Assembly: GCA_937969505.1 (NCBI GenBank)
Contig: CALBWA010000013.1
Location: 124,001-188,000, forward strand
Direction of reading: 5' to 3'
Source of the DNA: an uncultured Erythrobacter sp.
GTDB lineage: Bacteria > Pseudomonadota > Alphaproteobacteria > Sphingomonadales > Sphingomonadaceae
DNA: 64,000 nucleotides
Positions 3,705 to 7,065 of this stretch are shown here, in pieces; position 1 is the stretch's first letter; every line of letters starts with the position of its first letter. The notes beneath the pieces were generated by a model that was given only the letters and a program-made list of their open reading frames with translations, was not told the origin of the DNA and searched no databases. The translations under genes and the position numbers were made by a program.

Positions 3705-4235
3705 ATGGCGACCACCGGAACTGCATCGCTGACGATCAACGAAATGCGCGAATTCGCAAATTTTGAAGCGGGCGAACAACGGTATATCAAGCGCAGTCTG
3801 GATATCGGTCTGGGTCGCCACGATGCGTTCAAGCTGTGGGCGCGCAATGCGGGCGAAAACTCTGCCATTCGTCGCCAGTATGTCGCCTATCAGGAACTCA
3901 AGACCCTGCGCGAGACGATCCCGAGCGAAAGCACACCGGGCCAGATCGAACAGTTTATCGGCAAGCTGACGCGGGTGGCTGCGTTTGATCTTGGTCAGGA
4001 CCGGATCACCAGCTTTTCCGCGTTTCGTTTCCTGTATGAGCGCCTGCTCGGCGCCGATGTGCGGCCGTGGCTGCCCAGCGCATTTTGTGCAGCAGCTGCC
4101 TTGCCGCAAATCCAGCCCCAGCGCCGCAAAATGTTGCTGCAATCGCTCAGCGAAGCGGCGGCGACTGCGCCCGGTTGGTCTGATCGCGAGCCGCATTTCT
4201 ATCCTGAATATGTCGAGGAAGCCGAAGCGGCCTGA
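3705..4235 (+). CDS. hypothetical protein
   Basis: 176-aa ORF with coding character; C-terminus repeated downstream at 4787-4876. Confidence 0.6.
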   Translation: MATTGTASLTINEMREFANFEAGEQRYIKRSLDIGLGRHDAFKLWARNAGENSAIRRQYVAYQELKTLRETIPSESTPGQIEQFIGKLTRVAAFDLGQDRITSFSAFRFLYERLLGADVRPWLPSAFCAAAALPQIQPQRRKMLLQSLSEAAATAPGWSDREPHFYPEYVEEAEAA

Positions 4236-4240
4236 ACCGT

Positions 4241-4735
4241 ATGGACATGGCGATCATCAACTCGGCGCAGACACAGGTGGATCGCTGCGAGCCCTACCAA
4301 TGGTTGGGAAGGGTCCTCACCAATTTTGCAAAGGCAGAGCAAGCTATCGGGAATTTGTGTGTTGAATTGAACCTTCCAGTTGAAAGGGGCCCGCTTTCAA
4401 ACCTGCAAGACCTTCGAATTAAACTGACCAAAATCGATGACAAACGCTGCAAAACATTGATCAGCAGGATTGATCGTTGGGCTTCTCTTCGCCCTTTTCG
4501 CCACTTGCTCGCTCACGCCACTATCCACCAATTGAGCGATACCAGCGGCGCGCCCATCATTGTAACCAGACACTTGCCGCGGGACAGAGATGATGTAACT
4601 CCTGACCGGATGTGGACCGCTGCAGAGAGGGAGGACTTGCTTGCTAAAACCCGAAAAGACAGCAGTTCAATCTCTGATCAGATTCGCAACTTGATGGCAG
4701 ATAAGGCTGTAATTTTGAAATTGCGCTCGCATTGA
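4241..4735 (+). CDS. hypothetical protein with HEPN-like RX4H motif
   Basis: 164 aa; LISRIDRWASLRPFRHLLAHATIH contains R-H-L-L-A-H in a helical context. Confidence 0.5.
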   Translation: MDMAIINSAQTQVDRCEPYQWLGRVLTNFAKAEQAIGNLCVELNLPVERGPLSNLQDLRIKLTKIDDKRCKTLISRIDRWASLRPFRHLLAHATIHQLSDTSGAPIIVTRHLPRDRDDVTPDRMWTAAEREDLLAKTRKDSSSISDQIRNLMADKAVILKLRSH

Positions 4736-4786
4736 TACCGAGCCATCTCTGATGAATTTACCAGCCTAGCAATTGGGCCGGGAATG

Positions 4787-4876
4787 CTGGGGTTGGCTGC
4801 CGCAACTGCGCCAGGCTGGTCAGACCGCCAGCCCTGCTTCTATCCTGAATATGTCGAGGAAGCAGAAGCGGCCTGA
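4787..4876 (+). pseudogene. remnant/duplicate of the 3' end of the 3705-4235 gene
   Basis: LGLAAATAPGWSDRQPCFYPEYVEEAEAA* versus ...AAATAPGWSDREPHFYPEYVEEAEAA* at the end of the 3705-4235 ORF; no start codon or upstream portion. Confidence 0.8.
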
Positions 4877-5102
4877 CCGCAAGTTTCCTACAGACCGCTT
4901 TTGCCATAATCACGCAAGGTGGCTCTTTGACTGTGTGAGAACCCTGTTTGACCCTGTCGCGGCAGAACCTGCGCCATCGCGCGCATGACTTTGATCTGCG
5001 AAGTGTCAACTTTGCGGATGGGAAACAAGTCGTTGAATTTGCGCCGATAAAGATTGTTTTTCGGACCTGACACAGTGTCAACTTCGTCATCCGGGCGAGC
5101 TT

Positions 5103-5138
5103 CCAGTTTGATCCCCGGTTTGGTCCCCAGTTTGACCT
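5103..5138. repeat. three imperfect 12-bp tandem units
   Basis: ccagtttgatcc / ccggtttggtcc / ccagtttgacct, overlapping the stop codon of the acyl-CoA synthetase gene. Confidence 0.7.
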
Positions 5139-6948
5139 AAGCCCGATACATACTGTCGATGCGGGTCTGATACCTGTCCCGGATCTTGTGCCGCCGGATC
5201 TTCATGCTCGGCGTCATTTCTTCGTTCTCGATAGTGAAGGCCTCGTCCGCAAATTCGAACTTGCGCACTTTCTCGATCACGGAGAGATCGCCATTCACCC
5301 GGTCGACCGCTGCGCGAACCGCCTGCTTGAACGCGGGCAGATCCTGGAGCTTGGCCAGATCGAACTTTTCGTCATTGGCCCGGGCCCATTCCAGCGCCCA
5401 CTCGGCATCGGGCACGATCAGCCCCGCGATATAGGGGCGCTTGTCCCCGCTCACCATGGCCTGGGCAATTTCGGGCTGTAGCGTCAGCATGCCTTCAATT
5501 TTTTGCGGGGCGACATTGTCGCCCTTGTCATTGACGATCATGTCCTTCTTGCGATCGGTGATCACGATCCGCCCACGATCATCGAGATGGCCAATATCGC
5601 CTGTGTGGAGCCATCCGTCCTGGATCGTCCGGTCGGTTTCCGCCCGGTTCTGCCAATACCCATGCATGACCAGTTCGCCGCGGACCAGCAGTTCGCCATC
5701 CTCGGCAATATTGACTTCGACCCCGCGCATCGGCGGGCCCACAGTGTCCATCTTCAGCCCGGCTGCCGGGCGATTGCAGCTGATCACTGGCCCCGCCTCG
5801 GTCTGGCCGTATCCTTGCAGCATGGTCAGGCCCATTGCCTGAAAGAAATAGCCGACATCGGGGTTGAGCGGCGCCCCGCCGCTGACCATGGCCTTCATCC
5901 GGCCGCCGAACCGCTGTCTGATCTTGGGTCGCAATGTGCGTTCCAGCACGGCATCCATCGGCGTATCGCGTTTGCGTTTTTTGCCGCGGGCGGCCTCGTG
6001 CTCGGCGATATTGAGTGCGCGATCGAGCAGGTAATTGGCAAATTTGCCCTGTTTCTCGACCTGTTTGAGGATTCGTGTGCGCAAAACTTCGAACAGGCGC
6101 GGGACCACCACCATAATGGTTGGACGGACCTCTTCGATATTGCTCGCGAGCTTCTCCAGCCCCTCGGAGTAAAAGATTTCTGCGCCTACGCTGATCGGCA
6201 GATATTGCCCGCCAGTATGCTCATAGGCGTGGCTCAAGGGCAGGAAGGACAAAAACCGTTCGTCCTGAATGCCGAAATCATTGATCAGGATTTCCGCTGC
6301 ACCGGCTGCATTGCACAGGATCGCGCCGTGATGCTGCAGCACACCCCGCGGGGCCCCGCCCGTACCGCTGGTGTAAATGATGCAGGCGGTCGTTTCGCGG
6401 GTTATTCCGGCCAGTCTCGCCTCAACCGCCTGGCGCGCCTGCACCGCATCGCCGGACGTCACGACATTCCAGTCGTGATAGGTAAAGCCGCTCGACTGTT
6501 TGCGGTGCAGATCCTCGATCCCGATGACATGTTCGGCAATGCCGGTTGATTGCAAGGCACCATGCAGCGGCTGGAGCAGCTTTTCCGTCGAGACGATCAC
6601 TGCGCGAGCGCCTGAATTGTCGAGAATATGCGCGTGATCGCGTTCGGTATTGGTAATGTATGTCGGTACGGTCACGCAGCCCGCCGCCATGATGGCCAAG
6701 TCAGCTATGCACCATTCGGGCCTGTTTTCGGACACCAGCGCAACCCGGTCGCCATCATCCAGACCCAATGCGCGCAAGCCTTCTGCCAACAGGCAGACCT
6801 GCTGTGCAACTTCCGACCAGCTTTGCGTCGTCCATTCCCCGTTCTCGCGGCGGCCAAGGAAGGGCGCATCGCCCTTTTCATCGGCGCGTTTCAGGAAAAG
6901 CTCGACCAGATTGCTGGCGTTATCAATATCCGATAGCAAGGCGCTGCT
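5137..6948 (-). CDS. AMP-dependent long-chain fatty-acid--CoA ligase
   Basis: AMP-binding motif IIYTSGTGGAPRGV; YGQTEAGPVI; TGDIGHLDDRGRIVITDRKKDMIV; GTG start proposed at 6948 (open frame extends to 7038). Confidence 0.9.
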   Translation of the reverse strand, partial: SSALLSDIDNASNLVELFLKRADEKGDAPFLGRRENGEWTTQSWSEVAQQVCLLAEGLRALGLDDGDRVALVSENRPEWCIADLAIMAAGCVTVPTYITNTERDHAHILDNSGARAVIVSTEKLLQPLHGALQSTGIAEHVIGIEDLHRKQSSGFTYHDWNVVTSGDAVQARQAVEARLAGITRETTACIIYTSGTGGAPRGVLQHHGAILCNAAGAAEILINDFGIQDERFLSFLPLSHAYEHTGGQYLPISVGAEIFYSEGLEKLASNIEEVRPTIMVVVPRLFEVLRTRILKQVEKQGKFANYLLDRALNIAEHEAARGKKRKRDTPMDAVLERTLRPKIRQRFGGRMKAMVSGGAPLNPDVGYFFQAMGLTMLQGYGQTEAGPVISCNRPAAGLKMDTVGPPMRGVEVNIAEDGELLVRGELVMHGYWQNRAETDRTIQDGWLHTGDIGHLDDRGRIVITDRKKDMIVNDKGDNVAPQKIEGMLTLQPEIAQAMVSGDKRPYIAGLIVPDAEWALEWARANDEKFDLAKLQDLPAFKQAVRAAVDRVNGDLSVIEKVRKFEFADEAFTIENEEMTPSMKIRRHKIRDRYQTRIDSMYRA

Positions 6949-7065
6949 CACTCGATCATTCTCCCTCGGCCGAGATGCTCTGGCGGCACCCGTTACAATG
7001 TGTCGACGGGTTCTAGGGTTCCCCGGCTGGGGCGGCAAGCTTTAGCGTGCAGCGGGCCCGGCACT

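Follow-up and report, generated by a model that had tools for sequence, protein, structure and literature searches.

An orphan gene 3' end in Erythrobacter: a probable recombination scar between versions of a variable slot

A repeated gene end at the locus

The window considered here is a stretch of 64,000 nucleotides from the genome of an uncultured Erythrobacter sp. (G000 in our numbering of genomes), which comprises 2.57 Mb in 43 contigs at 90% completeness and 2.2% contamination; named relatives place the genus as Erythrobacter/Porphyrobacter. The locus within it has the following components:

3705..4235, + strand: conserved gene, 176 aa, intact copy (genus and family matches)
4155..4235, + strand: first copy of the repeat, the 3' end of the intact gene (repeat search)
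4241..4735, + strand: slot ORF, 164 aa, with invariant W21, E33, W80, R87 and H92 (family comparison)
4796..4876, + strand: orphan 3' end of gene 3705-4235 (26 codons plus stop), the probable scar (repeat, profile, substitution and edge analyses)
4877..5136, no strand: spacer from the orphan tail to the ligase gene (scattered short genus matches only)
5137..7038, - strand: long-chain acyl-CoA ligase-like gene in convergent orientation, bounding the slot on the right (named from its sequence)

As an earlier sequence-only reading had described, both ORFs (3705-4235 and 4241-4735) are open, and a repeat search confirmed the duplicated gene 3' end that it had reported: an 81-nt direct repeat (4155-4235 and 4796-4876) with 84% identity and a spacing of 641 nt. 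That reading had placed the orphan tail at 4787-4876; the right end holds, but the left one was drawn about 9 nt too far out, as the edge is sharp and lies exactly at 4796, with the likeness further upstream being no better than that of shuffled sequence. A profile of the gene's 3' end, run against 186 kb of slot sequence, recovers the orphan copy with E = 6e-20, the best match in the reversed-sequence control having E = 2.8. When a parental arrangement was sought across the genus by DNA searches with the spacer 4736-5136, essentially the tail alone was matched: the part from ~4795/4796 to ~4876 is the only one that matches most genomes, and the rest gave a few short stray matches.

The conserved gene was matched in 97 of the 100 genus genomes searched, and across the family in 203 of 251 genomes and 78 of 96 genera. 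Its 176-aa product has no match above cut-off in Pfam, NCBIfam, PADLOC or PHROG, and its fold model is unreliable (pLDDT 54). Two full tandem copies, which the sequence-only reading had named as the finding that would overturn its proposal, were looked for, and a second full copy is absent from all 97 matching genomes of the genus. Six genomes of other genera (G131, G164, G262, G265, G340 and G349) do carry a second full-length copy, 40-57% identical, which is located far away or on a different contig. In about 35 genus genomes (e.g. G003, G031, G022) the gene and the ligase gene are on separate contigs or ~76-204 kb apart, and the displacement of the gene in several orientations suggests repeated rearrangements with a breakpoint in the slot.

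Divergence of the two tails

The tails differ at 13 of 81 nt, with 10 synonymous and 3 nonsynonymous changes (dN/dS ~0.05), and because of this preponderance of synonymous changes both are seen to have diverged as coding sequence. The earlier count of about 10 mismatches in 72 nt thus has to be revised, but their mostly synonymous character stands, and with it the arrangement of an intact gene, other sequence and a second, diverged coding 3' end. Under neutral decay of one duplicate, ~16 nonsynonymous changes would be predicted in G000, where 3 are seen (Poisson P 7e-5). A longer fragment of the same gene in the genome G113 differs from that genome's own gene by 30 synonymous and 9 nonsynonymous changes, where the same test predicts ~45 nonsynonymous ones (Poisson P 8e-11). 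Moreover, other species are as close to the orphan tail as its own gene is: identity is 84% to G006, 85% to G075, 84% to G103 and 84% to the gene upstream. The low dN/dS, the neutral-decay test and this equal closeness all point to an origin of the two copies in two lineages.

These results bear directly on the simplest account of the repeat, namely an in situ duplication of the gene, after which the second copy would have been truncated at its 5' side and separated from the first by the ORF or other genes. The geometry would suit such a decayed tandem duplicate, the 641-nt spacing being near the gene length plus a short spacer, and the second full copies in the six genomes of other genera speak in the same direction. 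Against it stand the coding-type divergence of the fragments, the absence of a second full copy from every genome of the genus, and an orphan tail that is no nearer to its own gene than to the tails of other species, so that we regard it as unlikely.

The mismatches between the G000 tails are unevenly spread, with 12 in the first 42 nt and one in the last 39. A 39-nt stretch with a single mismatch is found in 1% of comparable species pairs, and such a near-identical tract fits what an exchange tract would leave.

A turnover slot with an old resident

An ortholog of the ligase is present in 112 of 114 genus genomes, and in 69 genomes gene and ligase form an adjacent pair, taken as both lying within the fetched 4.5 kb. 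The gap between them is nearly empty (<=131 nt) in 17 of these pairs, measures 131-700 nt in 37 and is larger in 15; thus, other sequence fills it in 52 of the 69. Besides members of the ORF 4241-4735 family, the contents, named from sequence, include a cupin-like ORF, an S9-type peptidase and an Lrp/dioxygenase-like block, among others. With conserved flanks and variable content, the gene-to-ligase gap is a turnover slot. No integrase was seen among the slot ORFs in homology clusters and ORF lists, a survey narrower than an exhaustive domain search.

Members of the ORF 4241-4735 family occur as single copies in 41 of the 114 Erythrobacter genomes and, wherever contigs permit the check, always adjoin this convergent acyl-CoA ligase gene; the order gene, ORF, ligase also recurs in Parerythrobacter lacustris and Qipengyuania. 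On account of its single occurrence, its constant place beside the ligase and the order kept in these other genera, the ORF is, as judged by sequence comparison, an old neighbour of the gene and a resident of the slot. This does away with the earlier proposal that it is the cargo of an integrating element.

Leftover gene ends in other genomes

A DNA profile detects leftovers of the gene's 3' end before the ligase gene in six genomes: G113 (E 8e-46), G031, G000, G057, G094 and G024. Those of G024 and G094 are short (nhmmer E 0.13 and 0.002, respectively); that of G024 was also found by a 39-nt self match. Four of the genomes (G000, G113, G094 and G024) show the complete arrangement of an intact gene upstream, other sequence between, and the leftover; other sequence in the same slot, which the sequence-only reading had named as support, was thus found in G113, G094 and G024, there followed by a gene 3' fragment. 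In G113 the sequence between gene and fragment is a kinase-like 724-aa ORF, and in G024 the block common to it and G108 stops ~10 nt short of the gene fragment. The leftover of G031 precedes a member of the ORF family, with the intact gene ~116 kb away, and in the incomplete genome G057 the leftover was found and no intact gene. The ORF-family member behind the G031 leftover (L039 / L090) contains an in-frame TGA.

The leftovers begin 204, about 128, 109, 81, 70 and 56 nt before the stop codon, and therefore there is no shared attachment core. The six different starts, together with the lack of similarity upstream of 4796, denote a non-homologous junction of variable position. The sequence-only reading had favoured an element that integrates site-specifically at the 3' end of the gene and brings a substitute tail with it, as islands do at tRNA genes. 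The succession of intact gene, insert and second 3' end, with inserts that differ between species, is what such an element would produce. However, the leftovers begin at different codons instead of at one core, no integrase was seen in the survey of slot ORFs described above, and the ORF is a slot resident common to several genera; we accordingly consider an element of this kind very improbable. The comparison with tRNA-gene islands loses its support for the first two of these reasons, and a recombination between two versions of the locus, with homology on one flank and an illegitimate join on the other, fits better.

The leftover of G094, together with the S9-type peptidase gene that follows it, is collinear with the end of the gene and the peptidase gene in G100 (score 244, versus 52 against G094's own gene tail), and the gene-peptidase-ligase version of the locus is intact in G100 and G012. 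Because of this collinearity, the G094 leftover can be identified as the gene end of the gene-peptidase-ligase version, and its running into the neighbour gene of another version of the locus is a further point against a decayed tandem duplicate.

The recurrence also bears on whether two strains of a mixed sample were joined in assembly. The contig number, completeness and contamination of the window's genome would allow such an artefact. Yet the longest exact match between the two G000 tails is 26 nt, and a join on a repeat would collapse it, not duplicate it; furthermore, the same geometry is seen in G113 and G024, assembled in 10 and 5 contigs and 100% complete. An artefact is hence the least probable of the explanations weighed here.

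Recombination between slot versions

The repeat, its coding-type divergence, its recurrence, the differing fragment starts and the collinearity of G094 with an intact gene-peptidase version are observations that we would explain by a recombination scar: the orphan tail probably (at about two chances in three) marks the joining of two versions, or haplotypes, of one variable slot. Across the genus, the stretch between the conserved gene and the ligase is either empty or occupied by the 164-aa ORF family or other genes. DNA of another lineage might recombine with the resident version through homology on one flank, most likely within the gene that both have, and its other end might then join illegitimately, i.e. 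by homology-facilitated illegitimate recombination (HFIR); alternatively, a circularised fragment could integrate by one crossover. By either route, the 3' end of one version would stand complete before the ORF, and that of the other would lie beyond it, bereft of the gene body. The molecular route and the anchoring flank are inferred, and either tail, orphan or intact, may be the native one.

The gene may have been the homologous anchor, as suggested by the 39-nt tract of G000 and by a change of affinity along the intact gene of G113. This G113 gene shares 18 of 31 G101-specific sites in its 5' part and 5 of 22 in its 3' part (Fisher P 0.013, a single post-hoc test), and from this site pattern it looks chimeric; the G113 fragment has 8 of the 22 sites. 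A maximum-likelihood tree of the 3' region puts this fragment inside the G113/G101/G108/G024 clade, with no finer placement. For G000 itself, sliding identity of ThiG, the gene and the ligase against 20 relatives is ~75-80% to all, with no consistent nearest relative. As regards the machinery, a search for the end-joining protein Ku gave nothing in the window's genome, at its completeness of 90%, and ComEC was matched there by a search that also matches E. coli.

Within the recombination explanation, the polarity might also be the reverse: the ORF-bearing locus would be native and the stretch from orphan tail to ligase brought in, anchored in the ligase gene. The arrangement in the window is equally compatible with this, and the widespread gene-ORF-ligase order favours it; but the 3' end of the G113 gene appears chimeric, just as gene-side anchoring predicts (the same P 0.013). 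Counted as a share within the recombination explanation, the ligase-anchored polarity is thus a real but clearly less probable option. A mirror search for fossils of the ligase 3' end found none, which makes the anchoring appear one-sided in the small number of cases observed. The more far-reaching view that the gene's 3' end is a favoured, integrase-free docking point, at which slot versions have been swapped repeatedly, anchored always on the gene side and never on that of the ligase, strikes us as rather doubtful.

Parallels and implications

In competent bacteria HFIR is an established process, and it also takes place in E. coli, at a low frequency (PMC3240628); it has been credited for loci where one segment replaces another (PMC2884548); the original studies in Acinetobacter, Pseudomonas stutzeri and pneumococcus are taken here as cited in these two papers. 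Like the event proposed for the window, it combines homology at one end with an illegitimate join at the other and brings in short foreign segments independently of an integrase. The present case differs in that the process is deduced from comparative genomics across species and not from experiment, with fragments of a conserved gene as its trace. A close parallel is offered by the sequential displacement of effector-immunity modules in the type VI secretion clusters of Vibrio cholerae, where HFIR was proposed to insert modules and to shift the 3' end of the old effector downstream, as with Rhs orphan ends (PMC5361080). As in these effector-immunity modules or Rhs loci, entry in the window would be anchored in the upstream conserved part, with the old 3' end orphaned downstream; but those are polymorphic toxin loci under diversifying selection, whereas the window has a conserved single-copy gene whose tail is incidental. 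Hotspots that lack mobile elements and recombine at the core genes on either side are common (PMC5635113) and resemble the slot in having two conserved flanks, fast-varying content and no apparent integrase. The slot is distinguished from them in that many of its occupied instances hold one small gene and that scars are kept in four genomes.

Most likely, therefore, the window displays a known kind of scar, small and unusually well documented, and nothing suggests a new mobile element. The slot offers a readable record of content change in which no mobile element is obvious, because the two parental arrangements, like the hybrid, still exist in separate species: the peptidase version in G100 and G012, the version with the ORF in the gene-ORF-ligase species, and the hybrid in G094. 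Such scars could serve to date and polarise gene exchange. They also caution that a duplicated gene end is no proof of an integrative element, and that what looks like a cargo ORF may be a long-standing neighbour.

The slot ORF family

The ORF family (4241-4735 in the window; L162, L172, L175) is small and fast-evolving, with three sequence types at ~20-30% identity in one slot. An R-x4-H motif is invariant in it and recalls the HEPN proteins, for which the criterion is R-x4-6-H in an all-helical fold. The model of ORF 4241-4735 (pLDDT 84.5) has helices plus a short beta hairpin, and a PDB fold search with it gave no match at E<=0.001, the fold thus being unproven. In at least 11 genomes, e.g. 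at L114 (G110) and L096 (G022), genes of the ORF family have a palindromic repeat (CCCCGGATCAAGTCCGGGG-like) at their 3' end, which gives rise to a common C-terminal extension, PDPGSSPG.
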